A stretch of 40,113 bases of DNA from an uncultured Bacteroidota bacterium (GTDB lineage: Bacteria; Bacteroidota; Bacteroidia; Bacteroidales; UBA12481), in NCBI GenBank assembly GCA_903851365.1, contig CAINOB010000111.1, forward strand, positions 1 through 40,113. The letters run 5' to 3'. This document shows, one piece after another, positions 1-32,510 of this stretch (position 1 is the stretch's first letter; each line of letters begins with the position of its first letter). A program made the translations under genes and the position numbers. Below the pieces are notes generated by a model, which was given only the letters and a program-made list of their open reading frames with translations, ran no database searches and had not been told where the DNA came from.

Positions 1-1722
1 ACCGGTAGCAACTGTTGTTGAATACGTAATATTGGTGATTGCTGAATTATTACAAAGCGTCTGGGTATCAGTTCCTGAAGCAGAAGTTAATGAAATAGTC
101 GCAGCCGCAATAGCTGTCGATATTGAATTTGAACTTAATGGGACAATATTATTATTAAGAAACCTGGCTTTCTCTGCATCGTAGTTTTGAATAATTTCAG
201 TGCCGGTTAATGCACGGCTATAAATTAATGCTTGTCCAATATTACCATTTAAATATTCACTACCAGCTGTTTTACCAATTTGCAGCAAACTACTTGTAAC
301 ATTATGGCTACTTCCTGGAGCATCTGAAGCTAATTGTACCCCATTTATCCAAATACTTCTCGTTGTGCCATCAAACTGAGCAACTGCATTAAACCATGAT
401 GTTGCGGATGAAAGCGAACCGTTATGAGGATTTAAATCATTCCCCCACCAAGAATGACTATAACCATTCGTATTATCTGTTCTGAAACCATTGTATTGAT
501 AATTACTTCCTGTATTGCCTATACTAATAAATCCATACTGAACCCAGGTTGTTGGTATTTTAATCCAAACACTTAAATTATAGGAATTATTACCTGAAGG
601 AAGATTTGTAGATGTGGCTCTATTAAAATATCCGTTTGATCCCAAATCGAAGTAGCCAGCTGAATTCCAGGTAATAACACTTGAGTTTTGCATGGTTACA
701 TCATTGTGGTTCAGAGTTAAATCATTCCATATAGCTCCAGTACCTGAATAAGATAATGGATTTAATGCGTCTAAATGCAATACCAGGTTTGATGTTACAA
801 TATCACCTGTCGAACCACACGTACAAGAAGAAGAATAATCAACGCGTATTGCATCACTATTAATCAGTGATGAAGTGGAATAAGTTGATGAAGTAGCGCC
901 AGATATTGCTGCTCCATTTTTATACCATTGATAAGTAGGATCACTACCTCCATTTTGTACTGTTGAAGTGAACGTAACAGCCGCCCCACTGCAGATGATA
1001 TTATCAGGGTCACTTGAGGTAATGGAAATGCTGGTAGTTGTAACCGTTATGGAGCCTGTCTCTGTTATATTTCCGCAACCTCCTGTTAAGGTAACCGTAT
1101 ATGAATAACTTTCGGCAACTGTGGGCTTACCGGATATAGTTACAACATTACCTGACCATGCACCGCTTACTCCTGTGGGGAGTCCGCTGAAAGTTGCACC
1201 GGTAGCACCTGTTGTTGCATAGGTAATATTGGTGATTGCTGTATTCTTACAAAGCGTTTGGGCATTGGTTCCAACGGCAGAAGTTAATGCGATCGTATTA
1301 TTAACACAGTAGGTAAATCCTGCAAGGGTAGCAGTTCCGTCCGGAGTGGTTACACTCACACTTCCCGACGTTCCGCTAGCTACCACAGCCGTGATACTGG
1401 TTGAACTTGCCACATTAAATGAAGTAGCTTCTATTCCACCAAAACTAACTGCTGTAGCTCCGGTAAAATTGGTTCCGGTAATGGTCACGGTTGCACCGGT
1501 TCCTGCCGTTGTGGGAGTGAAACTGGTGATGGTTGGAGATTCCCCGGCCCGAGTCCATGCTGCATTAAGCTCCAGGTTTGCAATGGCAGAATCGCTTGTT
1601 GCGGTATAGGCAGCAGTTGGTTCGACATAAGTACCAGCATTGCGTGTGGTTTGGGCATATCCACTTAAAATCAGGCCTTGGGCCAATAACAAAGACAGAA
1701 ACAGAGTGCGTTTAGTATTCAT
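1..1722 (-). CDS. Exported TIG/Ig-like/LamG modular surface protein (partial, C-terminus off the left edge)
   Basis: The frame is open from an ATG at 1722 to the window edge (574 codons), with no stop. Residues 1-24 form a signal peptide ending in GYAQ. An IPT/TIG fold (about 63-140) follows, then an Ig-like module containing TLCKNTAITNITY (about 142-235), a second Ig-like domain with QWYKNG (about 236-300), and a LamG/concanavalin-like domain (about 312-520) starting LVLHLDALNP. The first Ig module then begins again at the edge. These domains are typical of Bacteroidetes cell-surface adhesins and imply carbohydrate or protein binding outside the cell, but the ligand cannot be read from sequence. 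The gene has its own sigma-54-like element upstream and lies next to the KW-tail genes. Whether it also ends in a KW tail is not visible. Confidence 0.85.
   Translation of the reverse strand, partial: MNTKRTLFLSLLLAQGLILSGYAQTTRNAGTYVEPTAAYTATSDSAIANLELNAAWTRAGESPTITSFTPTTAGTGATVTITGTNFTGATAVSFGGIEATSFNVASSTSITAVVASGTSGSVSVTTPDGTATLAGFTYCVNNTIALTSAVGTNAQTLCKNTAITNITYATTGATGATFSGLPTGVSGAWSGNVVTISGKPTVAESYSYTVTLTGGCGNITETGSITVTTTSISITSSDPDNIICSGAAVTFTSTVQNGGSDPTYQWYKNGAAISGATSSTYSTSSLINSDAIRVDYSSSCTCGSTGDIVTSNLVLHLDALNPLSYSGTGAIWNDLTLNHNDVTMQNSSVITWNSAGYFDLGSNGYFNRATSTNLPSGNNSYNLSVWIKIPTTWVQYGFISIGNTGSNYQYNGFRTDNTNGYSHSWWGNDLNPHNGSLSSATSWFNAVAQFDGTTRSIWINGVQLASDAPGSSHNVTSSLLQIGKTAGSEYLNGNIGQALIYSRALTGTEIIQNYDAEKARFLNNNIVPLSSNSISTAIAAATISLTSASGTDTQTLCNNSAITNITYSTTVATG
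1198..1275. repeat. Direct repeat inside the TIG/LamG gene (second copy at 1-75)
   Basis: Bases 1-75 and about 1198-1275 are near-identical. Both contain the 20-mer gtaatattggtgattgctg(a/t), and both encode the start of the same Ig-like module (TLC-x-N-x-AITNITY). This points to recent duplication or gene conversion of the module within the protein. Confidence 0.75.
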
Positions 1723-1803
1723 GAATCGCGATTTATATTCCATTTTAAAAAAGAGAACAGCACTTGTTTCTTTGCCAAAACTTCAGTGCAACCCTATAGT
1801 GCT

Positions 1804-1818
1804 TCAAAAAAGGTGCCA
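1804..1818 (-). promoter_or_regulatory. Sigma-54-like -24/-12 element of the partial TIG/LamG gene
   Basis: The minus strand reads TGGCACCTTTTTTGA, against the RpoN consensus TGGCACG-N4-TTGC. The GG (-24) and GA (-12) dinucleotides are separated by exactly 10 bases, and the only important mismatch is A for C at -12. The element ends 81 bases before the ATG at 1722. Its assignment rests on two sister elements at 5772-5787 and 14647-14662. Confidence 0.55.
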
Positions 1819-1950
1819 CCAATAAAAAATCGAAAAAACCAAGGAAGGGATCAATGGTTAACTAACTTATTTACATATGATTTCACGATATTACGCCGCC
1901 AATTTTTGTGCGAAAATTACAGTTCCGGCCGGGCGGGTTATCCAAATCAG

Positions 1951-2025
1951 GATCGATAACGATCGGGATGCACGATATTATAATGGTGCTCACCGGGGCA
2001 TGTTAATGACAGCGAAAAGGTCCCC
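1951..2025. repeat. Dispersed element R5, copy 1 (upstream of the gene at 1722)
   Basis: This copy contains gatcgggatgcacgatat, tgctcac and, at 2008-2025, gacagcgaaaaggtcccc. It is shared with 5919-6027 and, more loosely, with 14848-14930. The outer end carries a small inverted repeat, GATCG-ATAA-CGATC (1951-1964). The element lies 133 bases upstream of the sigma-54-like box, almost the same distance as copy 2 from its own box. Confidence 0.7.
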
Positions 2026-2043
2026 AACGTTGGATGCTTTTTA

Positions 2044-2068
2044 ATTAGTGAGCCGCAGGCGAACTTAT
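2044..2068. repeat. R2 dispersed repeat, single unit
   Basis: The sequence attagtgagccgcaggcgaa is one unit of a repeat family that also occurs at 7758-7797, 9905-10036, 15036-15094 and 20898-21117. Confidence 0.75.
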
Positions 2069-2070
2069 TA

Positions 2071-2132
2071 TAAAGTTGCCAACTTTAAGCTGAAAACTTG
2101 GCCAAAGTCTCTGTTTAAAGTTGGCAACTTTA
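2071..2132 (-). terminator. Nested palindrome pair just after the stop of the 2133-5723 gene; possible terminator
   Basis: TAAAGTTGCCAACTTTA (2071-2087) and its exact reverse complement (2116-2132) face each other across 28 bases. Each arm is also nearly self-palindromic. The right arm directly touches the stop codon at 2133-2135, so transcripts of the minus-strand gene can fold a stem here. There is no clear U-run, so a terminator is only inferred; a protein-binding site or the remnant of a small mobile repeat is also possible. Confidence 0.4.
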
Positions 2133-5100
2133 TTACCACTTCGCCGTCCCGCCCACCGATGCCGGGATCACTACAAATGCTCCCGATACCGTGCTGGTTG
2201 CCGTTCCACAGGTTCCGGTGACGATGCAGTAATAATAGAGGGTGCCGGCCGTGCCAGGCTGGGGCGTATAACTGTTCGTTTGAGCGCCATTGGCTGCCGC
2301 CAGAGAAGTTCCCCCTGAGGCGCTTGCACTGCCGTTGCTGTACCACTGATAGGTTAACCCATCGCCCGTGGCAGTAACTGTAATGGCAGTAAAAGTTCCG
2401 TTTAAGCACTGGGTTTGGGTGGCGGTCGACTGGCTGCCAATGGCCGGTGCGGTGCAGGTAGTGACTGGATATTCAAAAGCACCCATCGCCGGCAAGGTTG
2501 CGCTCCGGGCATCTCCTCCGTCATAATCGGTGGTGATGTTGGTACCTGTAACACCCAACAAAGAGGAGGCCGTTGGCAGATAATCAGCTGCCGTGGTTCC
2601 TGGAGCTCGAACGGTAAACACCGGATCAGCATTTTTGCTGTGGGCATCCTGTGCTGTAGAGGTCTTCCATGCACTCAGGTTGCTGATATCATACGCTGGA
2701 TTGTAAGTTCCACTTTTGTGATATCCCAGCATACCCCCTGACCCACTTGCCAAATAATCATTATAATCCATTGTCAAACTGGAGTTTCCGTCAAAAGCAA
2801 GGTAAGCCGCAAAGTGTTTCCCTGATGCCCCATTATTTGTGCGGGCATTAACAAAAATATTATTTCGGAAATTTCTGATGCTGCTGTATAAGTCACTATA
2901 TAAACAGTAGCTGTTCAGGGAGCCGGACTCAGGAGATCCATTTAGATAAACGGTATTAAAATAAATGTTGCTGGTGGTGCCTGATGTTCCTGGCTCATAA
3001 ATTCCATATATGTTCGTAGTGTTATTTCCCGCAAGCGTAATAATGTTGTTTGAATAGGTTGCAACTCCTCCCCCAATCTTGATCCCATAGGCATTGGCAG
3101 AGCCGCTGCCCGTGTTGGCAACTATTCCGTAAATGAGATTCTTGTCAACCGAGCTCACGGTCGATGATCCAAAAAAGTATACCCCTGCAACGGTTCCTGC
3201 AAAGGAAGAGTAAGTATTTGAGATGTTATAGACGGTGTTGCCTGAGATGGTGTGGCTGACATTACCAGTCCCCGAAAACAAAATCCCTCCCGCGGAAAGA
3301 GAAATGTTCTGGTCGCTGGGAATCGGGCCTGTTTGAGTATTGGCGTTAGCAATCGTCAGGTCATGTACGCTGTTCCCGGATATGGTATAGGTACCGCCAG
3401 CAAACGCCCATATTCCATATACCTTGCCCTTGGTGCCGACCGTCGTATTGGTAGTTCCGTTGGTAAGATTCGCAATGGTGTTATTGCTTACCGTCATAGT
3501 CCCTCCGTTCCCGTCGCCTGAGTAGCCAATGACCATCTGAGGATAATTGTTGCCGGTGGAGGCTGACAGTGCCCGGATACTATTTGCTGTTGTAGCGCTT
3601 CCAATAGTATTATTGCTTATAACATTGGTATTGGTTCTGGCTTGCTGGTGAATTCCCCAAAAACTGGTTGAATAAGCAGAGTTGGTATTGTCTACAGTGA
3701 TGGCGCTAATTACATTATTCTGAATGTGGCAAATACCATCTCCCTGAAGATGGACTGCCAGAAAACGGGCATTATCACCTCCACAGATATAGGTAATAGA
3801 CCCGCCGGTGCTTCCTGCACCAATGTAATTGGGTGCTGTGGTCCCCATATTAACAGCTCCATTATCAATATAAATCCCCCACCAGTCAGGGCCACCTGTG
3901 TTCGAATAATTAATGTTACTGATCGTGTTTCCCTGGATATTGCTCACGTTTGTTGTGCCGACATGAAGCTGGATGCCCCAAAAATAATTACTGCTTGAAG
4001 ACTTTGTAAAGGTCCCTGTGCATCCCGGACCGCTTCCTCCGATATAATTGTATGATATGGTGAAATTATCACCATATGAAGTGCCATTGTCCCTGGTATT
4101 AATATAGATAATATTATAACTACCGCCCGAGGGTTGGAATGTTGTTGTTTCATAAAAGCTGTTACCCGTAATGGTCCAGTCACTATTGTAACCCTTAGTA
4201 TCCACAGCCTCGGCAAGGAGAATTCCACATGAACTATTATTAGGATTCAGGAAATTATAAATGTTATTGTTGCTTATAGTATTCGAAATATTTGAAGCAG
4301 TGCTGCTGCCTTTTGAATAGATGACATTCAGAGGCCTGTTGTTGCCTGCACAGGTGATTTCGTTGTGGTCAATGATGTTGGAGTTGTTCCCGGAAGAACC
4401 GGTGGCGGTGGTACTGAAGATCAGGATTGCGCCATTGGAACCCGTATTCGAACCCTGTGCCTTACAATACTTCATCGTGTTATTTGTGGCATTATTAATA
4501 AATCGGATGGCCGAAGTGCTGTTTCCGGAGGTATTGGTATTAATGATGACCAGGTTGATGCTGCTGCCTGTGGCATTAACCCGTCCATCTATCGTCACAT
4601 TATCCGCTCCGTCGAGGTCGATGAGTGGGCTACCCAGATTCCCGCTGATAGTTAATCCGGTAATTGTTGGATAAATGTTTATCGATGTGTAACTCGAACT
4701 GCCTGTGCCACTTGCATACAAAACGGCCGAAGAAGTTTCAGTGGTGCTCGCGTTCACTGCTATGGTAATTGTTCCCTGGTGAGTGCCTGCATTAATGGCA
4801 TCAAAAGCGGCTTTCAGGGTACTGTAACCCCATGCATAGTTACCCGCGACAAATACTTCTACTGGTTGCGTTAATGAAATCCGTGCAGAACCATTGCCAG
4901 TTTGCACCCCGGCCTGTGTGGAGCCATTGGAAACTCCATCGGTATACGCGGAACCGCCACCGCCACCGCCACCGTTATGCGAGCCGGCACCACCACCATA
5001 ATAACCGCCACCACCACCGCCACCCTGAATTTCGTCGCCCTCAGTTTGGTCAGCGCTTGCTCCCACACCAAATCCTGCGGCAATGGCAGGACTTACACTA

Positions 5101-5723
5101 CTTCCCCCAAGGGATGCAGTTCCTCCTCCACCCGCGACTCTGCTTCCTGCGGAAACTCCTGCAGATCCTGACGTACCCCCACCGGCGCCACCATTGCCTG
5201 CATAAGAATCAAAGCTGACATTTCCTGTTGAGCCTGCGGCTCCGCCACCACCTCCGGCAACGATCAATAAATTGCCATTACCCACCTGCCCGGAAAGTGT
5301 ACTCAACAAGCCCTGTATCTTGGAAATATGCGTTGCACCTCCACCCGTATATCCATTTGAAGCACCAACATGGTAATTACCAGAACCTCCACCGTTATAC
5401 GCGATGGAACTGGCTGACTGGAAACCCTGCTGACCCACGTAAACATAGATTGTTTGTCCCTGGGTGAGGGAAATTGTTCCTGTGCTATAACCACCATACC
5501 CTCCTGTACCCCAGTAGCTTGCACCGGTTCCTCCACCCTGCCCGCCCCAAACCTGAAGTCTGTAATTACCATCTGCGGAGGCTGTGAAACTTTGTTCTCC
5601 GCCAGTAAAGGAAAAATTTATTTGAGCTTCAGATTTAATCGACAGGAATGAAAGAATCAGCATAAAAAAGCAAGTAAGCGTATTTACACCTGAGATTCCC
5701 ATTCTGATAGTGGAGGTATTCAT
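2133..5723 (-). CDS. Exported glycine-rich / beta-helix / Ig-like surface protein with KW tail
   Basis: The protein has 1196 residues. A signal peptide ends at about residue 33 (KSEAQ). Residues about 34-285 are a glycine-rich domain with YTGGGATHI, LLIVAGGGGGA and GGGGGGGYYGGGAG, the pattern of the ALK/LTK-type glycine-rich domain. Residues about 300-1080 contain many NNTISNNNIYN-like turns, typical of a right-handed parallel beta-helix, closing with PAMGAFEYP. A C-terminal Ig-like domain (LTYQWYSNG, TLYYYCIVTGTCG) precedes the end ASVGGTAKW. No T9SS type A or B sorting domain is present. An extracellular structural or adhesive role is inferred. The gene appears monocistronic, with its own sigma-54-like element. 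The start at 5723 gives a long n-region; the ATG seven codons later is an alternative. Confidence 0.9.
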   Translation of the reverse strand: MNTSTIRMGISGVNTLTCFFMLILSFLSIKSEAQINFSFTGGEQSFTASADGNYRLQVWGGQGGGTGASYWGTGGYGGYSTGTISLTQGQTIYVYVGQQGFQSASSIAYNGGGSGNYHVGASNGYTGGGATHISKIQGLLSTLSGQVGNGNLLIVAGGGGGAAGSTGNVSFDSYAGNGGAGGGTSGSAGVSAGSRVAGGGGTASLGGSSVSPAIAAGFGVGASADQTEGDEIQGGGGGGGYYGGGAGSHNGGGGGGGSAYTDGVSNGSTQAGVQTGNGSARISLTQPVEVFVAGNYAWGYSTLKAAFDAINAGTHQGTITIAVNASTTETSSAVLYASGTGSSSYTSINIYPTITGLTISGNLGSPLIDLDGADNVTIDGRVNATGSSINLVIINTNTSGNSTSAIRFINNATNNTMKYCKAQGSNTGSNGAILIFSTTATGSSGNNSNIIDHNEITCAGNNRPLNVIYSKGSSTASNISNTISNNNIYNFLNPNNSSCGILLAEAVDTKGYNSDWTITGNSFYETTTFQPSGGSYNIIYINTRDNGTSYGDNFTISYNYIGGSGPGCTGTFTKSSSSNYFWGIQLHVGTTNVSNIQGNTISNINYSNTGGPDWWGIYIDNGAVNMGTTAPNYIGAGSTGGSITYICGGDNARFLAVHLQGDGICHIQNNVISAITVDNTNSAYSTSFWGIHQQARTNTNVISNNTIGSATTANSIRALSASTGNNYPQMVIGYSGDGNGGTMTVSNNTIANLTNGTTNTTVGTKGKVYGIWAFAGGTYTISGNSVHDLTIANANTQTGPIPSDQNISLSAGGILFSGTGNVSHTISGNTVYNISNTYSSFAGTVAGVYFFGSSTVSSVDKNLIYGIVANTGSGSANAYGIKIGGGVATYSNNIITLAGNNTTNIYGIYEPGTSGTTSNIYFNTVYLNGSPESGSLNSYCLYSDLYSSIRNFRNNIFVNARTNNGASGKHFAAYLAFDGNSSLTMDYNDYLASGSGGMLGYHKSGTYNPAYDISNLSAWKTSTAQDAHSKNADPVFTVRAPGTTAADYLPTASSLLGVTGTNITTDYDGGDARSATLPAMGAFEYPVTTCTAPAIGSQSTATQTQCLNGTFTAITVTATGDGLTYQWYSNGSASASGGTSLAAANGAQTNSYTPQPGTAGTLYYYCIVTGTCGTATSTVSGAFVVIPASVGGTAKW

Positions 5724-5771
5724 TCAGAAAAAGTTGTGTTTGGCCATAATTACTACTTAACCTGACGTAAA

Positions 5772-5787
5772 TACAAAAGGGATGCCA
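5772..5787 (-). promoter_or_regulatory. Sigma-54-like -24/-12 element of the glycine-rich/beta-helix gene
   Basis: The minus strand reads TGGCATCCCCTTTTGTA with the GG-N10-GT spacing of RpoN promoters. It differs from the consensus at TGGCAT (for TGGCAC) and TTGT (for TTGC), so it is the weakest of the three copies. It ends 48 bases before the ATG at 5723. Confidence 0.45.
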
Positions 5788-5804
5788 CTTAACCTTCTAG
5801 CAAT

Positions 5805-5820
5805 AATCCCGATCGGGATT
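5805..5820. other. 16-bp perfect palindrome upstream of the sigma-54-like element
   Basis: AATCCCGATCGGGATT is identical to its own reverse complement and lies 18 bases upstream of the -24 box of the gene at 5723. The core gatcgggat recurs in the R5 element (1961-1969 and 5929-5937). It could be a dimer-binding operator or simply part of a repeat. Confidence 0.5.
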
Positions 5821-5918
5821 GAGCGGCATAACCCATTGAACTGCATGTGAATAGTTTCATATAAAATTCCTGGATAAGCGGTATCCGACGAGACTGACTG
5901 GCTTACTGCTCAAATAAT

Positions 5919-6027
5919 GATCGATTTTGATCGGGATGCACGATATCATAATGATGCTCACAATGGCATGACTACGGCTGCGGGAAGGTGCTCTCTATTT
6001 GTTTGCTACGACAGCGAAAAGGTCCCC
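5919..6027. repeat. Dispersed element R5, copy 2
   Basis: This copy is homologous to 1951-2025: gatcg, gatcgggatgcacgatat, a tgctcac box at 5955-5961 and gacagcgaaaaggtcccc at 6010-6027. It has 34 extra bases between the last two boxes. It begins 132 bases above the -24 box of the 2133-5723 gene. The distance between the two boxes (55 bases) equals that of the copy near 14.9 kb. Confidence 0.7.
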
Positions 6028-6041
6028 TCCTGCCGAATGCC

Positions 6042-6063
6042 GTGGTAAGGGACGGGGACCCCG
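6042..6063. repeat. REP-like repeat, left half, cut by the IS element
   Basis: gtggtaagggacgggg is the left half of the REP-like repeat seen intact at 9014-9052 and 21815-21860. Its last 11 bases, CGGGGACCCCG (6053-6063), match CGGGGTCCCCG at 7714-7724 across the insertion, apart from the centre base. Confidence 0.75.
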
Positions 6064-6152
6064 CATAGCCGTCAACCTAAGGAGGGAAAATTAATATTTT
6101 GTACTAATATAAGGGGTTATCTGATCCCCAGCAATGGAAGATTCAAAAGTCC

Positions 6153-7325
6153 TTGGAGATTTTTGGTCCTGAGGAGTTGATGAAGTTAGCCAGAGAGACT
6201 GGTTTTTGTAAAAGGGATTCCAAGATGGGTCCCAGCTCGTTCTTTGATATTATGATGTATGATGCAAGTTCGGTTAATTCAAAAAGCCTGAACCAACTTG
6301 CCATAGAAGCGATGTCCGAGCATGACATTGGTATTACTAAACAAGGTCTGGATAAGCGTTTCAACGATAAGGCACTCGATTCCTTTAAGCATTTGATTGA
6401 GAAACAGCTATCTGTGAAATTAGATCAGTCCATTGAAGCTGGTTGGCTGGGTTCATTTAACCGGGTTTTAATTAAAGACGGAACGCGTTTTGACCTGCCG
6501 GAAGCTTTCCATGATCGCCTACCCGGTTCCGGGGGCAGTGCCTCAAAGGCTGGAGCCTGTCTGCAATTTGAATATGATCTGAAAAGCGGCAGCATAACGG
6601 ACCTGAGCTTGACTCCGGCTAACAGACCCGATGCCAGAGATGCAAAAGAGATTTTAGGTACAGTCGCTAAAAATGATCTGATCCTGCGAGACCTTGGGTA
6701 TTATGGTTTTTCTGCGTTTAAGAATATCATAAGCAAAGGGGTTTTCTTTATTTCCAGGCTTTGCTTTTCTACGGTTGTTTTTGAGAAAAGGAAAGGAAAG
6801 TTCCAACGCCTGGACTTTAAATCTATTTATGCCTATTTGCAAGAACATCAATTATCCAGTATTGAGAAGACCGTCTTCGTTGGAGTCAGAGTAAAAATCC
6901 CGGTCCGGTTGGTGATCGAACTTCTCCCGGAAGCCGTCTACGAAAAACGAACCAGAAATAACCGTAAGGTCGAGAAAAAGAAAGGGTATCAACCCAGTGA
7001 AGAATACCTGTTTATGTCCAGGTTCAATCTCTTCATTACTAATGTTGCAGCAGAGATATTGCCGGAAACAGTTATCTCACAACTCTATCGGATGCGCTGG
7101 CAGATTGAGTTGATCTTCAAGGTTTGGAAATCGGTTATTGGCATCCACCATACCAGAAAAATGAAATACATACGATGGATGTGTCTGTTGTATTTTAAGT
7201 TGCTCCTCATGGTAATCAATTGGAATACCATCATGGTTCAACGCGGTCTTCTGTACAATAAAAGGGGCCAAATGTTAAGTCTGAATAAATGCTTTAAACC
7301 TTGTTTGACAATACGTTTAGACTAA
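6153..7325 (+). CDS. IS4-family DDE transposase (frameshifted near its C-terminus)
   Basis: The frame encodes 390 residues. The catalytic triad is visible as VLIKDGTRFDLP (first D), LILRDLGYYG (second D) and the E of YRMRWQIELIFKVWK, which fits the IS4 signature Y-2-R-3-E-6-K exactly. It should cut and paste the surrounding 1650-bp element. No in-frame ATG exists after the stop at 6105, so the start is taken as TTG 6153; an out-of-frame ATG at 6134 hints that the 5' end has also changed. The last residues (PCLTIRLD) do not look like the family. The expected C-terminus is encoded one frame over at 7301-7489, so one base is probably missing in TTTAAACC near 7297. Confidence 0.9.
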   Translation: MEIFGPEELMKLARETGFCKRDSKMGPSSFFDIMMYDASSVNSKSLNQLAIEAMSEHDIGITKQGLDKRFNDKALDSFKHLIEKQLSVKLDQSIEAGWLGSFNRVLIKDGTRFDLPEAFHDRLPGSGGSASKAGACLQFEYDLKSGSITDLSLTPANRPDARDAKEILGTVAKNDLILRDLGYYGFSAFKNIISKGVFFISRLCFSTVVFEKRKGKFQRLDFKSIYAYLQEHQLSSIEKTVFVGVRVKIPVRLVIELLPEAVYEKRTRNNRKVEKKKGYQPSEEYLFMSRFNLFITNVAAEILPETVISQLYRMRWQIELIFKVWKSVIGIHHTRKMKYIRWMCLLYFKLLLMVINWNTIMVQRGLLYNKRGQMLSLNKCFKPCLTIRLD

Positions 7326-7489
7326 GAGAAGCATTCAGGACAGGATTACTTGGAATTGGAAACTTCATCCTATGGGTAGCAAAAATATTAAACTCGAATC
7401 ATGCGTTGGAACGCAAAAAAAAATCACTAGGATTAGAGAAAATAATCTACATATTGTATTGTAAATCAAATATATATGCCTATATTTAA
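7301..7489 (+). pseudogene. Out-of-frame C-terminal piece of the IS4 transposase
   Basis: The other frame reads LFDNTFRLREAFRTGLLGIG and continues for about 62 codons. It joins smoothly to LSLNKCFK of the main frame if one A is restored near 7297. This is the natural end of the transposase and not a separate gene. No properly phased slippery heptamer is seen, so decay or a sequencing error is likelier than programmed frameshifting. Confidence 0.7.
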
Positions 7490-7495
7490 CAAAGA

Positions 7496-7528
7496 AAACG
7501 GGATAGTCCTGAAAAACAAATCCCGTTT
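7496..7528 (+). terminator. Hairpin after the transposase gene
   Basis: AAACGGGAT (7496-7504) pairs with ATCCCGTTT (7520-7528). It lies seven bases after the shifted transposase frame ends and has only a short T-run, so termination is plausible but not certain. Confidence 0.5.
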
Positions 7529-7572
7529 AAAAACTAAAAGTTCCTTGATATGAGCGAAATTACAACAAACAA

Positions 7573-7595
7573 CCCCGTTCTCCAAAGGAACGGGG
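7573..7595. other. Strong hairpin inside the IS tail
   Basis: CCCCGTTC-tccaaag-GAACGGGG has 8-bp perfect arms and is followed by six A on the plus strand. It probably blocks transcription into or out of the element. The rest of 7530-7695 shows nothing recognisable. Confidence 0.5.
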
Positions 7596-7713
7596 AAAAA
7601 ATTAGTTTCGTCCTTACTATCAAGGGATTGCAAGCCCATATCCTAGCGTCAAATAACACTAAGCTACAACCCAGAGAATATCAATCAATTAACCTCTTAG
7701 GTTGACGGCTATG

Positions 7714-7745
7714 CGGGGTCCCCGCCTTCGCGGGGATGACAACTC
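7714..7745. repeat. REP-like repeat, right half, next to the IS
   Basis: The sequence cggggtccccgccttcgcggggatgacaac is split here from its left half at 6042-6063. CCCCGCC-ttc-GCGGGG forms a small hairpin. Confidence 0.75.
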
Positions 7746-7757
7746 TGTCGAAGTTGT

Positions 7758-7797
7758 ATTAGTGAGGCGCACGGAACCTATTAGGAGCGAAGCCTCC
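7758..7797. repeat. R2 dispersed repeat, two units touching a stop codon
   Basis: attagtgaggcgcacggaac and attaggagcgaagcctccc lie in tandem. The second unit runs directly into the TAG stop (7798-7800) of the LamG gene, so repeat sequence may even supply the stop. Confidence 0.75.
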
Positions 7798-8790
7798 CTA
7801 CCACTTCGCCGCTCCGCCTGCCGATACCGGATTAACGGTTATTGTAACCGATGCACAACCCGCACTCCACGTCCCATTGTTATTGCGGGCATAATAAGTT
7901 GTAGTAACCGAAGGGCTGACAGTTAACGTTGGATCTGCTGCGGTGGAGGTGGCCGGTGAAGTTGCAGTGCCTCCGCAGCTTGACGTATACCAATAAACCG
8001 TTCCGACAGGCCCATTGGCTGTAAGTACCGTGCTGGTTCCGTTGCAGATTGGATTTACCGTGGCAGTAATTGAAGTGGGATTTGCAGGAGCTATGGGTCC
8101 CGAATGATCAGCAATATAATTCGATGTGGAGCCGGTCATGGTGAAACCGCTGAGAGAAGCAGTTTTTCCGTTACCTGAGGCATCGGTGAGGCTGGTTATT
8201 CCAGTGTTGGTCCCACCGGGAGTTCCCTCATCCATTTTGTAGTAAGCAGCCAATCCTGAAAACGAAGACAGCGTGACATTATAGTTAGCAGAAATTTCGA
8301 CGGAGGTTCTGGCCACCGACCAGATGCGGACCTCATCGATACCCCCTATCCATATTTCGCCGGACGACCGGCTTATCTGCAGAGCTCCTGAATTACTGGT
8401 TGGGGCAAGCAGTTGCGAAGTCGTCTGGTAGGCACCGTTTTTGTAAAGTTCGTAGGTGCCGCTGCGCCTTACCAAGGCAATGTGGGTCCAGGTATTTAGT
8501 GGAATTGTAGCAGTTGCGCTAGAGCTCCCGTTATTAATCAGGTAAGTGAGCGTTCCGTTTCCTGATGATATACCTAATCCGATGGAGGCGCCATCCAGGC
8601 AAATAGCCCAGCTATACCCTCCATATGACCGGGGATAAACCCAGGCCTCCAGCGTAAAGTTATCGGTATTGGTCATCACGTTGCTGGCAGTGGCATTGTC
8701 GTTGGTGCCATCGAAATCGAGCGCCGACTGGCTTTTCCCGGTTAAGGAAAACAAGAGGCTGAGACTGACAATAAAAATTACTCTTTTCAT
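7798..8790 (-). CDS. Exported LamG-domain protein with Ig-like domain and KW tail
   Basis: The protein has 330 residues. The signal peptide (1-20) ends in TGKSQ. A LamG/concanavalin-like domain covers about 22-205 (LDFDGTNDNATASN, FTLEAWVYPRS, WTHIALVRR, GGIDEVRIWSVARTS, AAYYKMDEG). An Ig-like domain follows (about 235-320) with TYYARNNNGTWSAGC, and the protein ends NPVSAGGAAKW. It is the last gene of the four-gene operon that begins at 14587. The start has a good ribosome site (AGAGGA) 31 bases after the preceding stop. An extracellular binding role is likely but the ligand is unknown. There is no T9SS sorting domain. Confidence 0.9.
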   Translation of the reverse strand: MKRVIFIVSLSLLFSLTGKSQSALDFDGTNDNATASNVMTNTDNFTLEAWVYPRSYGGYSWAICLDGASIGLGISSGNGTLTYLINNGSSSATATIPLNTWTHIALVRRSGTYELYKNGAYQTTSQLLAPTSNSGALQISRSSGEIWIGGIDEVRIWSVARTSVEISANYNVTLSSFSGLAAYYKMDEGTPGGTNTGITSLTDASGNGKTASLSGFTMTGSTSNYIADHSGPIAPANPTSITATVNPICNGTSTVLTANGPVGTVYWYTSSCGGTATSPATSTAADPTLTVSPSVTTTYYARNNNGTWSAGCASVTITVNPVSAGGAAKW

Positions 8791-8821
8791 AACATTCCTC
8801 TTGCGTTAATTGCTTGATTAA

Positions 8822-9088
8822 TCACCATTTTGAAGTGTCTCCCACCGAAGCAGCTGTAAAAGTGCCAGAGACAGAAACATATCTGGTTGTCTGGCCAGTT
8901 GAAGCCAGGCTGATATTTCCGCCGCTGGCAACATATAAAGACTGTGACTCGGCATTGCTGATTAAGGTGAAAAGGCAGATCAATATTAAGAAGGTTCGAC
9001 TGATGAAATTAGTGGTAAGGGACGGGGTCCCGTTTTTCAAGGGGATGACAAGGCTATCGAAATAAAGTAGAGTAATTAATTTCTTCAT
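8822..9088 (-). CDS. Exported microprotein consisting almost only of signal peptide and KW tail
   Basis: The protein has 88 residues. The first part, MKKLITLLYF, is followed by about 20 residues encoded by a REP-like repeat (9014-9052). The hydrophobic core TFLILICLFTLI and a probable cleavage site at NAESQ come next. The mature part is about 40 residues, rich in S, G and T, and ends AASVGDTSKW. It has no Ig domain, yet it carries the same tail as its larger neighbours. The ATG at 9088 is nine bases after the upstream stop; an ATG at 9100 in the same frame overlaps that stop and is an alternative. The function is unknown. Confidence 0.7.
   Translation of the reverse strand: MKKLITLLYFDSLVIPLKNGTPSLTTNFISRTFLILICLFTLISNAESQSLYVASGGNISLASTGQTTRYVSVSGTFTAASVGDTSKW
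9014..9052. repeat. REP-like repeat inside a coding signal-peptide region
   Basis: gtaagggacggggtcccg followed by tttttcaaggggatgaca is a diverged copy of the REP-like family at 6042/7714 and 21815-21860. Read on the minus strand it stays open and adds about 13-20 residues between the start and the hydrophobic core of the microprotein's signal peptide. Confidence 0.75.
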
Positions 9089-9093
9089 GTTAT

Positions 9094-10047
9094 TTACCAT
9101 TTGGTCGTGCCTCCTGTAGATGCCGGGTTAACCGTTGCTTCGAGCGTATTGGATACCGCCGCTCCGGTCCAGTCAGATTTGCAGTTCACCCTGGCCAGAC
9201 GTCTGTAACGGGTTGTTTCTGTCAGACCTGCCGGGGGATTATAAGTGGCAGAATTGGTGCTGCTGATATCATTCCAGGTAGTGAATGGCGATACAGAATT
9301 TTGCCAAATATATTCGAGAGTGCCAGTCTCACCGCTTGCGGCTGCCGAGCTTGTAAATGCTGCCGGATCAAATGGGGTACATCCGGTTTGGGCAGTGGCT
9401 ATTGTACCACCGCTGGTTGGGTTGGTACAGGCCGATAAGGTGCCATAAACGTAGAATTCTGTAATTGATCCGTAAGTATGGCTAAAAGTTGCGTAGATCC
9501 GAACATACCTGTAATAACCTGCACTACAATTATATCTATAATTTCCCGCGACGGAAGCAGAACCACTGTGAAGATTGCTCCAGGAAGAACCATTGGTACT
9601 TCCCTGAAAAGTAAAGTTATCAGGAAGCTCACTTGAATTTCCCGAATCGAATCCATAACCATCAATATAATAACTGTCGCCCAAATCAACCATCAACCAT
9701 GCCGGACTGTTGGTCAATGCGCACCAAAGCCCACCGGATCCATTAACTGCATCTGATGGGGGATATCCACCCGCATAGTTCGATGCGCTTGCGGTTTTGC
9801 CGAATGCAACATTAGAATAACCACCGGTGTACTGCCCCATTGCGGTAATAGACGCTACAACCAAAAAGACAACCATAATGCCCAATTTTAGCGACCGGAG
9901 GGAGCCAATTAGTGAGCCGAAGGCGAACCAATTAGGAGCGAAGCGACCTCTTAGTGAGCCGCAGGCGAACCTATTAGTGAGGCGCCAGCCGAACCAATTA
10001 GTGAGCGAAGCGAACCAATTAGCGAACGCAGTGAGCATATTTACCAT
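9094..10047 (-). CDS. Exported discoidin (F5/8 type C) protein with Ig-like module and KW tail
   Basis: The discoidin fold covers about residues 78-208 (NVAFGKTASASNYAGGYPPS, WLMVDLGDSYYIDGYGF, YRYVRIYATF, ITEFYVYG) and usually binds carbohydrate. One Ig-like module (about 210-305) starts SGGTIATAQTGCTPFDPAAF; the upstream protein carries the same module type. The end is ASTGGTTKW. Residues 5-53 are encoded by the R2 repeat array and look artificial. The core gene probably starts near M58 (9876), before the signal-like MVVFLVVASITAMGQ. The listed ATG overlaps the upstream stop (ATGGTAA), and an ATG at 10038 is a third option. It is the second gene of the four-gene operon. Confidence 0.8.
   Translation of the reverse strand: MVNMLTAFANWFASLTNWFGWRLTNRFACGSLRGRFAPNWFAFGSLIGSLRSLKLGIMVVFLVVASITAMGQYTGGYSNVAFGKTASASNYAGGYPPSDAVNGSGGLWCALTNSPAWLMVDLGDSYYIDGYGFDSGNSSELPDNFTFQGSTNGSSWSNLHSGSASVAGNYRYNCSAGYYRYVRIYATFSHTYGSITEFYVYGTLSACTNPTSGGTIATAQTGCTPFDPAAFTSSAAASGETGTLEYIWQNSVSPFTTWNDISSTNSATYNPPAGLTETTRYRRLARVNCKSDWTGAAVSNTLEATVNPASTGGTTKW
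9905..10036. repeat. R2 repeat array, six imperfect units
   Basis: Six units of 20-24 bases (type attagtgagcgaagcgaac) lie in tandem without unique spacers. The array starts directly at the stop codon of the MBG-repeat gene and fills the 5' end of the discoidin frame without adding a stop. Confidence 0.85.
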
Positions 10048-13000
10048 TTTACCGTCCCCCCAACTGTTACTGCACTTACTGTTACCGATTTAGTAACTGC
10101 CGTGCTGTTGCCGCATGCATTGCCTGCCGTTACTGTGATATTACCATTCTGACCACCCGATCCTGCAGTAACGGTTATTGTATTGGTGCCGCTGCCCGCA
10201 GTAACCGACCATCCGGTTGGAACTGTCCAGGTGTAGGTAGTGGCATTTGTCACGCTGGAAATACTATAGGTTTGCCCTGTTGAACCTGCGCATTGCTGGG
10301 AGGTTCCGCTGATAGTACCAGGTGTTGCCGGAGCCGAATTATATATGGTTATCTCAACTACATTCGATGAGGTAGCTGAAGCCCAGTCACTGATGCAGGT
10401 AACGCGGGAAAGTCTTCGGTACCAAGTGGTGACCTTGATTATATCCGGGTCGTAAGCATCGGCATTGCTGCTGGCGATATCACTGAACCCTGTTGAACTG
10501 CTGCTGGTGGAAAGTTGCCATTTATATTCAAGCGTTCCATTTTGTCCCGAGGGTAGGGTTGTACTTACAATCAGTGCGGGATTATATGGATTGCAGCCAT
10601 TCTGATTTTCTGAAATTTCACCCCCATTTGTCGGATTCAACGGACTCGCACAGGGTTGAACAGTCAGTGTATGAGCTACTGATGAAGCTGAATTGTAATA
10701 GTTATCCCCGGACTGGCTGGCAGTAATTGTTGAATTACCCTGAGTTCCAATGGTCGCCGATTTTCCACTGATAGCCGCTACTCCCGTATTGCTGCTCGTA
10801 AAAGTTATATTGAGCGATGAGGTACTGCTTGCGTTAAGGTCAAAAACGGGGTCACCCACATTCTTGGTTGAAAGCGCATCAAAAGTGATCGTCTGATTAA
10901 GCTTGTTGACTGTGAATGATTGACTTGCAGATGCCGAGTTGAAATTGGTGTTTCCAGCCTGGCTTGCATTGACAGTTACCGTTCCTGTTGAACCACTGCT
11001 GGTAATCAGATTGGCCCCATCGATGGTTGCCGGACTTGCCCCGCCCAGAGTTAGTGTTACTGTCAATCCTGATGTTGAGGTGGCCGAAGCCTGAATCGGA
11101 GCGCCCTCAAATGCGAGTAATGAAATATCGGTTGGCAAACCGGTGATGGTCAGAGTCTGATTTGCCTGTGCTACAGTCAGGGTAATATCTGCACTCACTG
11201 AGTTATTATTGGCGTCCGCAGCCTGGGCAGCTGTTAATGTTGAGGTACCCGCGCCCGTTATCGTAACCGTATTCCCTGAAATTATTGCCACAGCGTTATT
11301 TCCGCTGGAATAGGTAAAAGCTCCTGTACTGGCGGATGAAGGTGTTAAGGAGAAAGACGCATCGCCCCAGGTTTTGCCGATAGCGGAAAAATTCGTGATC
11401 GATGGTGTGGCCCGGGCTATGGTTAAATTCCGGGTGACCGCAGCAGCCGGATTCCAGCTTGCATTGCCTTCCTGATTTGCCGTTATGGCCACCGTTCCGG
11501 TACCTGTTATGGTAACGGTAGTGCCGTTTGTTCCGGTGCAGGTGGCTATATTGTTATTTGAACTGGCGAAAGTGACCGGGTTTTCGGAAAGTCCGCCGGT
11601 AGCGGTTAATGGGAATGCTGCATCACCAAATGTTTTGCCGGTTAGCTCATCAAATGCAATCACCTGATTACCCATCTCAACATTAAAAGTCTGGGAAAGG
11701 ATTGCAGCATTATAATTGGCATTTCCGGCCTGATCTGCCGTAACGATCACCGTTCCGCTTGTACTTACGCCGGAAAGGGTGTAACTGCCAACAGTTCCGC
11801 CAAGTGTAGAGGTTGCTGTGCCTCCTATAGTCACTGTGACTCCCAGGGAGGATGAAGAAGTTGCTGTTATCCCGATCGACGTATCGTAAAAAGTATTCAG
11901 CTTGGCGCTGGTCGGAATTCTCAGAGTCAGCACTTGGTCGGCCTTTGCCACGGTAAGCAATGCAGTAGTGGTGGCGCTGCCATAATTACCCGAGGCAGCC
12001 TGGGTTGCCGTAATTGTTGAGGTTCCGGCGCCGGTTATGGTAACCGTATTTCCCGATATCGTTGCTACGTTGTGATCGCTGCTGGTGTAGCTGTATGTAC
12101 CCGGACTGCCTGATGCCGGATTCACCAGTACAAAGGTTGGATCTCCGTATATTTTATTGATGTCTGAGAAGGTGCCGAGCTGGAATGGCGTGAAGCTGAG
12201 CTGGGTCCCGTAGGAAGTTCCATAGCTGCTTGTCGCATAAGCTCTTGCATAATAGGTTGTGCCAACAGTCAGTCCGGTGATGGAAGATACAAAAGCTCCG
12301 GTGCCGGTGCCGTTGGTGGTTTTTGAATCCGCAATGGTTGGATTGGATGATGTGCCCCAGCACACCCCTTTGGCAGTTACGGAGAATCCCCCTTCGCTGG
12401 TGACGGTTCCGCCACAGGTTGCTGTTGCAGAGCCAACTGCAGATATAGCGGCTGTCGTTATTCCCGGATAGGAAGAGGCAACGGTTAACGTCTGGCTCAC
12501 CTGAGCAGCAGCCGGATAGGTCCCGTTTCCAGCCTGATCGGCATAGATTGTGCAGGTTCCGGCGCCGGTTATGGTTAAAATATTTCCGCTCACCGCAGCC
12601 ACAGTGGCATCTGATGTTGAATAAGTTATGGTTAATCCTGATGTGGCTTTTGCTGCCAGGGTAATGGGTGCATCTCCGAAGGTTGCCGTGTAACCATAGT
12701 AGATGGCTACTGCACCGCCGCCGCCATTGCATCCGGGAGTGCCTTTGCTGTCGTTGCTCTGACCGCCGCCACCACCACCATAAAGACCGCCGGTATTGGT
12801 TGCCCCTCCAGACGTAGCATTTGCCGATCCATTGCCTCCTCCTGATCCGCCGCGGCCCGCAAGTGTGGCGCTGCTGCCCGGACCGCTGAGGCCGGTTCCG
12901 CCACCGGATTGTGTGGCACCATTAATCCCGTTATTTCCTCCATTGGCACCCCCGGCACCCGAGCCGCCGCTGCCAACTGTCCAGCCGCCATTGCCGCCCG

Positions 13001-13288
13001 CGCCAGAATATCCCCCGGCACCCGCACCGCCGCCTCCCGTATCACCCGACGAGCTACCGCCGGTGCCACCGTTACCGCCGCCATCGAAAGTACTGTAAGC
13101 AGCGCCGCCCGTGCCACCGGCATAGGGTGTATTTGTATTTGAATTCGTTCCGGTACCAGCTGTTCCGCCGGCTGCACCGATAGTTGTTCCGCTGAAGGTT
13201 AGATAGCTGCTTTCACCGCTCGTACCCTGACCACCGGCGTTAGCTGTAATTCCTGCACCACCCCTTCCGGCATAAACTGTGCAGGATA
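10041..13288 (-). CDS. Glycine-rich / MBG-repeat surface protein, 3' part after a frameshift, with KW tail
   Basis: This frame is open from about 13306 to the stop at 10041 and continues the protein begun at 14587. It opens with the end of a glycine-rich block (SCTVYAGRGGAGITANAGGQ). It then holds about seven MBG-type Ig-like repeats of 80-90 residues (FGDAPITL, IYGDPTF, KTFGDAAF, KTWGDASF, KNVGDPVFDL; each with a T-I-T-G-x-G-T-like core). A fibronectin-like module (GVCWGTSSNPTIADSKTTNG) sits between the first two. An Ig module (GGEISENQNGCNPYNPA) shared with the discoidin protein follows, then a last Ig-like domain, ending VTVGGTVKW. No start codon with a signal peptide exists in this frame, so it is expressed only if the frameshift is bypassed or is a sequencing error. 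Repaired, the protein would have about 1515 residues. Confidence 0.8.
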
Positions 13289-14587
13289 TCCTGGAGTAAC
13301 ACTTAGTTTAGTCTTATAGGCAAGTGCCCCGCCACCACCGCCGCCACCGGCCCAGTATGCCGCGCCACCCGAACCGCCACCACCGATGGCGATCACCTGA
13401 ATGCTTGTTGTACCCGCAGGAACTATCCAGTCAACCGGACTGCCACTGGCAGTAATGATTTGCTGAGTTCCTAATCCAAGTATGTGGTTATTATTCCCGA
13501 CAAAGGTAAAACCGGCTAGAGAGCCTGTGCCGTAAACATTTGAAACACTAACACTTCCAATAGTGCCGACACCAACGACTGCCGAAATCTGCGTTCCCGA
13601 ATTGACAACATAGGAAGCCGCTGCCGTTCCTCCGAAGCTTACAGACGTTACTCCCGAAAACCCGGTTCCAGTTATGATAACACTGGTACCTGTTGATCCC
13701 GATGTCGGGGTAAAAGAAGATACAACAGGGGGAACCGCCATACTTGCTGAAGCGCATGCCGAAAATAATCCCGAAACATCACCTGCATTAGCTCCTGCAC
13801 CTCCTGCCGACGTTTGCGTTCCACCTATAACTCCCCCAATTCCGCCGCCACCGCCGCCACCCTCATCACCAGTTGATCCTTTTCCGGCACCGCCGGTTGA
13901 TCCGCCATCTCCACCGGAATAGGAACCGCCTGTGGCATTAGCATTGCTATTAAAGTATCCCCCTCCGCCGCCATTGCCAGTTATAGTGGTGCCGGCAATG
14001 GTAATGGTAGTATTTCCCCCGGATGAGCCATTATTTGCCCCAGATCCGTATGCGCCGCCTGCCCCCAATGAATAACTTATCGTATTTCCGCTGGATACAT
14101 CTTTGCTAATATAGGCAACACCCCCGGCAGCGCCACCCCCGCCGGAATCTGAGTCACTGCTGGTTGCACCGGCACCACCACCACCAGCACCAATGGCCCA
14201 AACTTTTGCCTGGGTAATTCCAGTGCCTACTGAAACAGATGTGCCAGCCACCAATACCACAGAACTTACAAACGAAGCCCCGTTATAGTAGGCAATCACA
14301 ACAACTCCCTGACCACCGGTACCGCCGTGCCAGGAACTTCCGTATCCTGAAGCTCCCCCTCCTCCTCCTCCATACTTTCCATTACCTCCGTTGCCGCCCC
14401 AGTATCCTCCTCCACCACCTGCACAACCTAATCCGGTGGCAGCGCTACCCTGATTATTTGCCCCTCCGGTACCCGAAATTGAACCGGCACCACCAGAAGT
14501 TACTGCCACCTGACCAGCAGCAAATCCACCAGGCAAAAGCATGATGATTGCAAGCAGAATTTTAACGATCAGGGATAGTAATTTCAT
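13199..14587 (-). CDS. Glycine-rich / TIG surface protein, 5' part (frameshifted), first gene of the operon
   Basis: The frame encodes 462 residues. The signal peptide (1-25) is MKLLSLIVKILLAIIMLLPG followed by GFAAGQ. Glycine-rich blocks lie at about 26-110 (ending GGQGVVVIAYYNG), 130-285 and from 375 on. An IPT/TIG domain (about 287-367, FTPTSGSTGTSVIITGTGF) separates the last two. After LSVTPGY (near 13290) the frame slips: the remaining 30 residues (PAQFMPEGVVQ...) match nothing, while the neighbouring frame continues the glycine-rich domain. One base is missing in GGATATCCTGC relative to the expected reading. A sigma-54-like promoter lies 60-75 bases upstream. Confidence 0.8.
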   Translation of the reverse strand: MKLLSLIVKILLAIIMLLPGGFAAGQVAVTSGGAGSISGTGGANNQGSAATGLGCAGGGGGYWGGNGGNGKYGGGGGGASGYGSSWHGGTGGQGVVVIAYYNGASFVSSVVLVAGTSVSVGTGITQAKVWAIGAGGGGAGATSSDSDSGGGGAAGGVAYISKDVSSGNTISYSLGAGGAYGSGANNGSSGGNTTITIAGTTITGNGGGGGYFNSNANATGGSYSGGDGGSTGGAGKGSTGDEGGGGGGGIGGVIGGTQTSAGGAGANAGDVSGLFSACASASMAVPPVVSSFTPTSGSTGTSVIITGTGFSGVTSVSFGGTAAASYVVNSGTQISAVVGVGTIGSVSVSNVYGTGSLAGFTFVGNNNHILGLGTQQIITASGSPVDWIVPAGTTSIQVIAIGGGGSGGAAYWAGGGGGGGALAYKTKLSVTPGYPAQFMPEGVVQELQLTPVVRVRAVKAAI

Positions 14588-14646
14588 CTTTCAGGATTAG
14601 GAAAATCTATTTATCAGCCCGGAATTCCCAGGAGGTAAGGGTGGAA

Positions 14647-14662
14647 TGCAAAAAGGGTGCCA
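14647..14662 (-). promoter_or_regulatory. Sigma-54 (RpoN) type -24/-12 promoter of the four-gene KW-tail operon
   Basis: The minus strand reads TGGCACCCTTTTTGCA, which matches TGGCAC-N5-TTGCA with the GG-N10-GC spacing of RpoN promoters. The start codon at 14587 lies 60 bases after the element, giving a leader of roughly 45-50 bases. No similar element precedes the three downstream genes, so they are probably co-transcribed from here. Confidence 0.65.
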
Positions 14663-14847
14663 CCAGCCGGAAAGTGGTGCCTCAGGGTAGATACACCTGG
14701 TCTCTGTATATTGAATTACAACACTTTAAAAGCAGTGTAAAGCCTGATTATAAATAATATCCTGTGGTAAATAATGTGCGTTCGTCAAAAAATTGCTCAA
14801 TTTAGAGCATATTTAAAGCAGGCAACTTAATAAGGCAAAGGTACCCA

Positions 14848-14930
14848 GCGATGAGCGTGCTCTCAATAGCCCCGGTCTGGCAGCGTAAAGGTGATCTCAA
14901 ATCACTCGGTGCGACAGCGTAAAGGTCCCC
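14848..14930. repeat. Dispersed element R5, copy 3 (diverged), merging into REP-like sequence
   Basis: The box tgctctcaat (14858-14867) and gacagcgtaaaggtcccc (14913-14930) match the other R5 copies. The two boxes are 55 bases apart, as in copy 2. An internal second cagcgtaaaggt lies at 14881-14892. This lies in the 507-base gap between 14587 and 15095. The part from 14665 to 14847 shows nothing recognisable beyond the inverted repeat ACACT-N8-AGTGT. Confidence 0.55.
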
Positions 14931-15000
14931 GCTTCCGGTTTCGCCGCCTCGCGGGGATGACAGAAAAGGTTCCTGCTTTCGCAGGAATGACAGAAAAGGA
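14921..15000. repeat. REP-like repeats, two related copies in tandem
   Basis: aaggtccccgcttccggtt... ending gcggggatgacagaaaagg is followed by ttcctgctttcgcaggaatg. Both end in the GGRATGACA signature of this REP family and contain short hairpins (CCTGC-ttt-GCAGG). Confidence 0.7.
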
Positions 15001-15035
15001 CGGCTACGTTGGACAATTTCTGAAAGAACGCTTTT

Positions 15036-15094
15036 ATTTAGCGCGAAGCGCATATTTAGTGAGCCGCAGGCGAACCAATTAGGAGCGCAGCGAA
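15036..15094. repeat. R2 repeat units touching the stop of the coiled-coil gene
   Basis: tttagcgcgaagcgcata, tttagtgagccgcaggcgaa and attaggagcgcagcgaac lie in tandem and run directly into the TAG stop (15095-15097) of the minus-strand gene. Confidence 0.75.
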
Positions 15095-15985: not shown

Positions 15986-16060
15986 AGTTTTACCTGATTG
16001 AATTACTTTGCAAATTAACGTAATTAAGGTCAATTTTCATCCAAAGACAGATTAGTGTGC

Positions 16061-16068
16061 TAAATTTG
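16061..16068 (+). promoter_or_regulatory. Bacteroidetes -7 promoter box (TAAATTTG) for the Ig-like lipoprotein
   Basis: TAAATTTG fits the Bacteroidetes TAnnTTTG consensus. Transcription would start about seven bases after it, giving a leader of roughly 12 bases before ATG 16087. This favours 16087 over the in-frame ATG at 16057, which lies upstream of the box. No clear -33 TTG was seen. Confidence 0.45.
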
Positions 16069-16086
16069 TCGTCAAACGCTAAATTA

Positions 16087-21806: not shown

Positions 21807-21814
21807 GTTTCGCA

Positions 21815-21860
21815 GTTAGGGACGGGGTCCCCGCCTGCGCGGGGATGACAACTCTTCAGG
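21815..21860. repeat. REP-like repeat, intact copy
   Basis: ttagggacggggtccccg, then cctgcgcggggatgacaact. CCCCGC-ctg-GCGGGG forms a hairpin. This is the intact form of the repeat that the IS4 element split at 6042-6063/7714-7745. Confidence 0.8.
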
Positions 21861-32458: not shown

Positions 32459-32510
32459 AATCAAAGTCATAAACCGCGTAAATATAGTACGGAATTTTAA
32501 TCTTTGCCTA

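Follow-up and report, generated by a model that had tools for sequence, protein, structure and literature searches.

Short conserved C-terminal peptides carried by otherwise different exported proteins are familiar from the substrates of sortases and exosortases (LPXTG, PEP-CTERM), in which the motif is followed by a transmembrane helix and basic residues. The sorting signals described for the type IX secretion system (T9SS) of Bacteroidota are whole domains; according to two reports, type A signals are immunoglobulin (Ig)-like domains (PMC10202324) of about 100 residues, and type B signals measure 150–235 residues (PMC12618676). Here we analyse a nine-residue tail ending in Lys-Trp (KW) in a 40,113-nucleotide stretch of DNA (the window) from an uncultured Bacteroidota bacterium (assembly GCA_903851365.1, here G000; contig CAINOB010000111.1, here C111). 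The tail closes genes that lie head to tail in a genomic island and encode modular, adhesin-like proteins with signal peptides. An earlier reading of the window from its letters and translated frames (the sequence-only reading) had proposed a sorting, anchoring or assembly signal. In our assessment there is about an even chance that the tail is a flexible C-terminal peptide, maintained by selection and confined to the island, which serves in docking or assembly.

Five minus-strand genes of the window, ending at 2133, 7798, 8822, 9094 and 10041, have the C-termini ASVGGTAKW (2133–2162 including the stop, TAA), VSAGGAAKW (7798–7827, TAG), ASVGDTSKW (8822–8851, TGA), ASTGGTTKW (9094–9123, TAA) and VTVGGTVKW (10041–10070, TAA). 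The Lys codons in this order are AAG, AAG, AAA, AAA and AAA, and tails, stops and Lys codons are all exactly as the sequence-only reading had listed them. In the 5,229,094-base genome, the pattern GGNGRNNCNNNNAARTGGTRR, which encodes G-[GDE]-x-x-K-W-stop and requires C as the second base of the third codon, gave seven matches, on one strand only, compared to one match for the reversed pattern, and the recurrence of the tail is thus not due to chance. Of the seven tails, five lie in the window; the other two are at 14768 and 17246 of contig C46, the latter (ASVGGTAKW) in a gene whose 5′ start is off its contig. All seven close open frames of module-type proteins, and every array gene with a visible end in G000 (7/7) stops in a KW tail. 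Together with two further tails from a second genome of the genus (G010), the consensus is [ST]-x-G-[GD]-x-x-K-W-stop.

To the nine tails, all four Gly codons contribute at position –6 (counted back from the terminal Trp), as do both Lys codons and all three stops, and the first and second bases of the G(–6), K and W codons are invariant. In pairwise comparison, codons –6, –5, –2 and –1 differ in 8 of 288 cases at positions 1 and 2 and in 74 of 144 at position 3, the corresponding figures for the free codons –9, –7 and –3 being 78 of 216 and 78 of 108. Since third positions are free and the first two bases of the G(–6), K and W codons are fixed, it is the peptide that has been kept and not the DNA, as had been claimed from the five tails of the window, and the codon pattern points to selection acting on the tail peptide. 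The nine tails show what is expected of a functional linear motif, with a conserved peptide and free synonymous sites, although the comparison is partly circular. The specific part of the tail is x-K-W-stop.

A constraint at the level of the DNA is highly improbable. The string AARTGGTRR would then be kept for an RTG start codon that it holds in another frame, for translational coupling or as a recombination point, and indeed RTG is present in 9/9 tails, opens the frame of the next gene in 3/9, and repeats come after several of the stops. However, RTG follows from the K-W codons anyway and the synonymous bases are free, and in 6/9 tails, the last gene of the array included, the overlapping frame runs for 6 to 29 codons and leads to no gene, and an overlapping start codon was mostly rejected as a candidate.

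Some of the array genes recur, in unchanged order, on contig C33 of G010, with the two further tails: the end of a discoidin-type last module (TSVGGSAKW; L111:5483–5707, orthologue of the end of array gene 2 of the window), a gene of 468 residues (ASVGGITKW; L111:4083–5489, orthologue of array gene 3), and an orthologue of array gene 5 (L111:3–3569), whose end is lost at the contig boundary. Between these G010 genes there is neither the LamG gene nor the transposase of the window. G(–6), K and W are retained in both G000/G010 orthologue pairs and other tail positions change; this lends weak support, because the identity near the tails is itself 67–69% (69% and 22/33 in the two pairs).

Array gene 3 (8822–9100, minus strand, 92 residues) had been described as a microprotein without any Ig module, and as such had served as an argument against the tail being a relic of module loss. 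The 92-residue protein aligns at both ends with its 468-residue G010 orthologue, the middle between two GGN sites being gone. Its signal peptide is fused at GGN to the last 33 module residues, tail included, and its final 35 residues show a 66% match to the closing stretch of the C46 protein's last module. Judged by these alignments, the microprotein is what an internal deletion has left of a module protein, with signal peptide and tail kept in frame, and the argument against a module relic therefore falls.

The first half of the tail has a counterpart in the joins between modules. In the related genome G011, modules open with SVGGTVASAQTICSG or SVGGTLASAQTICSG directly after the last strand of the preceding module, and V-x-x-x-S-V-G-G-T links modules of the CHU_C-associated Ig_7 type. 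Because these openings match it, the first half of the tail looks like a normal join to a next module, in agreement with the resemblance that the sequence-only reading had seen between GGT and an Ig module start, and a linker at the opening of a following Ig module is the probable origin of the GG(T) part. The array version differs in continuing with x-K-W and a stop, and not with the rest of a module.

The main rival explanation, which we regard as rather doubtful, takes this likeness further: the array would have been duplicated from one gene whose last module was cut after its first strand, and the tail would be a functionless leftover shared by descent. SVGGT is the normal opening of the following Ig module in G011 (SVGGTVASAQTICSG...VVRWEK), the 92-residue gene is itself a deletion remnant, and two G010 array ends on separate contigs, PATPGTIRK and KPGDIKKL, also consist of a module opening plus two or three residues. 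Descent alone sits poorly with third positions that are free next to first and second bases of G(–6), K and W that are fixed, and gene conversion would have evened out the third positions too. Moreover, GGTxKW occurs inside no module in G000: both non-terminal matches of GGNGGNACNNNNAARTGG fall in aminotransferase-like proteins, and the idea that the string belongs to a module was rejected for this genome.

The other G010 array ends read PATPGTIRK, KPGDIKKL, AVTVTVN, VRAIRSF, VRAVRSF, TSTKQW and VLITKL. The first two of these, which look like a module opening plus a few residues, hint that genes of this genus may habitually stop shortly after the last module, the KW form then being the version of the island. 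Exported modular genes without a type A-like end, partly arranged head to tail, were seen in G010 at L193 (C100; 7589–19999), at L110 and L198 (C544) and at L171 (C610), with the ends PATPGTIRK, KPGDIKKL, VRAVRSF and TSTKQW.

The final modules that precede the tail are of different types, namely Ig_7, PKD_6 and a sandwich with weak matches to ASH/PapD-type folds. Structure prediction of a last module plus tail by AlphaFold2 (7-row alignment) gave a best model with a mean predicted local distance difference test score (pLDDT) of 82, the other four reaching 63 to 76. In the best model the module is mostly at 80–96, and tail residues 131–137 are below 50. In this one usable model the tail is thus predicted to be flexible and to lie outside the last module, which fits a free peptide. 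A second model, of the end of the discoidin protein (three rows), was too poor to be used (mean pLDDT 41). The fold search with the first model returned nothing at E < 0.001; its best rows were weak, and several were ASH/PapD-like.

The tails stand directly after the last strand of a beta-sandwich module, and could be imagined as a structural cap that forms the last strand of the final module and is retained because folding requires it. This is improbable given that the module types differ and that, in the one good model, the tail lies beyond the folded region. In addition, the Pfam match to Ig_7 stops at residue 321 of 330, before the tail, and neither SVGGT nor KW is present in three copies of the sandwich module that are internal to G011 proteins.

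Export of the array proteins was examined by reading their starts by eye. A Gln is present at the likely signal peptidase I site in 7/7 array starts read in G000 (AAG/Q, AMG/Q, AES/Q, GKS/Q, SEA/Q, GYA/Q and AFG/Q; the start of the C46:17246 gene is not in its contig) and in 2/2 in G010, in line with the signal peptides assigned before. These starts agree with the Q-rule for proteins exported by Sec and signal peptidase I with Gln at the mature N-terminus, which predicts Gln at the likely cleavage site (PMC5837995).

In a profile search of eight array open reading frames (ORFs), one of which (3–1743) lacks its end, neither the type A (TIGR04183) nor the type B (TIGR04131) model of the T9SS gave a match at E up to 1, and the reported absence of these domains is upheld. 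Positive controls were found in the same window, with type A at 29990–32518 (34.6 bits) and type B at 32442–36269 (52.1 bits). Pfam and NCBIfam searches of the array ORFs detected no sorting domain, no model being searched under the type C (ChiA) name. The genome contains 107 type A tails above the curated cut-off, of which none is in the assembled island, and the PorP/SprF gene of the window (36266–37240) lies outside the island.

The array proteins resemble those bearing type A signals (TIGR04183/PF18962) in being Sec-exported modular Bacteroidota proteins with a signal at the C-terminus and an Ig-like sandwich, but what they share is nine residues, no domain, and there is no TIGR04183 match. 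They resemble type B proteins, which are exported with a PorP/SprF shuttle, in their adhesin-like modular build, and one type B pair is present in the window; however, the array ORFs lack TIGR04131 and the assembled island lacks a PorP/SprF gene. Type C (ChiA type, cl41395) offers a precedent for a sorting signal outside types A and B (PMC10202324), but is by its description a region of about 100 residues with motifs and thereby set apart from the tail. In contrast to sortase and exosortase substrates, the array proteins end at the Trp directly after the motif, with no transmembrane helix or basic end segment, and no partner enzyme is encoded in the assembled island.

The tail, perhaps together with the last beta-sandwich module, might also be a new type of T9SS sorting signal. 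The genome uses T9SS signals, with its many type A tails and the type B protein and PorP/SprF gene in the window, and type A signals are themselves Ig-like domains (PMC10202324). Even so, we hold this to be quite improbable: against known signals of about 100 or 150–235 residues (PMC12618676), only nine are shared here, the last modules differ in type, and the assembled island is without a shuttle gene.

To determine the distribution of the tail, patterns of differing stringency were used. A loose pattern, the sole one that finds all nine tails, gave 28 matches in eight genomes of the genus, nine of them true tails (seven in G000, two in G010); the 19 others were all read (13 + 6) and are short frames or have TGG replacing the stop. 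The stricter pattern applied to the genome and its family, which finds 7/7 of the G000 tails and 0/2 of those in G010, yielded no real tail outside G000 in twelve family genomes. Among 393 genomes of the order, the pattern used (5/7 and 0/2) had matches in nine, with five in G000 and one in each of eight others, none of the latter at the end of an exported protein; the match in L021 is internal to an exported-type protein, as GGTDKWW. A scan of GTDB, which may omit the genome of the window or its near relatives, gave 18 matches with a pattern that fits 4/7 and 0/2 of the tails. None was convincing: nine have TGG and not a stop, and the remaining nine close open frames of 12 to 86 codons, none of them a module protein by eye. 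Since the stricter patterns miss both G010 tails, the lack of tails in genomes outside the genus applies to the GGT form and not to every variant.

The frequency of KW ends was counted in a 323,216-base sample that includes the window and C46. Outside the island, KW ends were seen in 2 of 189 genes, one among the 57 exported-like genes and one among the remaining 132. Genes were picked by a crude codon score that missed the 92-residue gene, and exported-like refers to a hydrophobicity rule by which N-terminal membrane helices are caught as well. The sequence-only reading had held that the signal idea fails if KW ends are no commoner among exported proteins genome-wide; they are no commoner among exported-like genes here, and a genome-wide signal fails by that test. 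These figures and the pattern counts rule out a genome-wide sorting signal, and the general sorting system that had been envisaged is not supported, the tail being limited to one array in 2/8 genus genomes. In open-licence literature, taken as titles and the beginnings of abstracts, no paper pointed to such a C-terminal tail.

The docking or assembly reading is favoured because the tails sit on final modules of different type, are predicted to be flexible, and seem to be under selection as judged by their codons. The array proteins would be exported by Sec and cleaved by signal peptidase I, and the nine-residue tail would then bind one common partner. This partner could be a receptor in the envelope that positions the proteins at the surface, or one of the sibling proteins within a common surface assembly. 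In this way, the tail would do for the island what a sorting domain does elsewhere. The earlier proposal is thereby narrowed to a selected peptide private to the island, and its generality is given up. As the described T9SS signals are whole domains, such a tail would make a compact tag system, and its presence on varied exported proteins would be a natural case of surface proteins with swapped domains that keep one common plug.

Several points weigh against this interpretation. The motif was chosen for being conserved, and the codon figures are consequently biased upwards. There are just two orthologue pairs, too few to prove selection alone, and the low pLDDT of the tail may stem from the shallow alignment. 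The tail-bearing array is present in two genomes only, and in the G010 assembly its contig has no link to the island site. Finally, the assembled island contains no protease, sortase, receptor or outer-membrane shuttle, although a co-occurring membrane protease or sortase-like gene had been named as something to look for, with an assembly gap remaining.

We consider it unlikely, though worth stating, that the island works as a surface-assembly system complete in itself, with the private peptide docking sibling adhesins of different fold into a common partner; one of the siblings, or a gene lying unseen in the assembly gap, would then provide that partner. If true, this would represent export or anchoring without known T9SS signals, and new adhesins could join simply by gaining a nine-residue tail. 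The island offers a clean comparison, in that several relatives have the same site without the array.

An array gene is interrupted at base 1 of C111, and the right end of C46 also breaks inside an array gene, with matching orientations and no sequence overlap between the two ends. The simplest reading is that, in G000, C111 and C46 carry the two parts of one island, which measures at least 17 kb and is interrupted by an assembly gap. The island is flanked by a conserved coiled-coil gene (15095–16033, minus strand), upstream of the array on C111, and by lspA, the gene beyond the array on C46. The coiled-coil gene was found in eight family relatives and lspA in seven. The matched stretches of the two genes are 20 to 599 bases apart in G009, G006, G011, G008, G005 and G003, and the site is without the array in 6/8 relatives with the coiled-coil gene (the 599 bases in G005 being unsearched for small genes). 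In G007, the two genes are separated by a gene for a membrane protein, which by eye is a transporter. The G010 copy of the coiled-coil gene extends past the end of its contig, and no lspA was found in that genome. If the two contigs are joined in this way, the island would be a lineage-specific insertion between the coiled-coil gene and lspA, of which the window holds one end.

All array genes of the window are on the minus strand. Array gene 1 (10041–14587) encodes a signal peptide, glycine-rich and TIG domains (Pfam Gly_rich_2 and TIG), repeated modules and a final PKD_6. A single frameshift near 13330 (within 13300–13360) divides it into the ORFs 13199–14587 and 10041–12602, which places the signal peptide, at the gene start (14587), across the frameshift from the tail; the frameshift may be an assembly error or a real inactivation. 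Array gene 2 (9094–9876) has a signal peptide, an F5/8 type C (discoidin) domain and, by reading, an Ig-like module; its start was read at 9876, and the open frame extends up to 10047 through repeats. Array gene 4 (7798–8790) combines a signal peptide with Laminin_G_3 and Ig_7 (Pfam), and array gene 5 (2133–5723) a signal peptide with a glycine-rich domain (Pfam), a long repetitive middle and an Ig_7-like module that scores below the Pfam cut-off. Array gene 6 (1–1743), with a signal peptide and LamG and Ig-like modules (Pfam), continues past the window edge, and the end at C46:17246 may belong to it or to another gene across the assembly gap. With regard to the domain labels of the sequence-only reading, discoidin and LamG agree with Pfam (F5/8 type C and Laminin_G_3), but Pfam gave no MBG hit for the gene ending at 10041 and no beta-helix hit for that ending at 2133.

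A DDE transposase (PF01609; 6153–7325, plus strand) lies within the array on the opposite strand and is no part of the tail system; it is absent from the corresponding place in G010 L111. Beside the island, a Big_5 Ig-like protein (16057–18081) ends in SETWKW and its G010 orthologue in SESWQW, that is, KW is not kept.

Two repeat families were observed. The repeat TTCGCxxxxGGCTCACTAAT is present between genes of the window at 2044–2063, 9908–9992 and 15055–15074, with five matches (≤3 mismatches) against 0.24 expected, and related units are found in the gap between the coiled-coil gene and lspA in G011 and G005 (L070, L072). The second family, of the CATCCCCGCGAAGGCGGGGACC type, is located at 7714–7746, 9009–9060, 14924–14962 and 21797–21855; one copy is read through in the leader of the gene at 8822–9100, and a similar insert is present in its G010 orthologue. 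No known RNA element reached the gathering threshold in window positions 1–16000. A 76-base self-complementary match (82%) at 2058–2145 spans the stop of the gene ending at 2133 and is a possible terminator. At the right edge of the window, 39372–40070 contains tandem modules that are about 70–78% alike in DNA.

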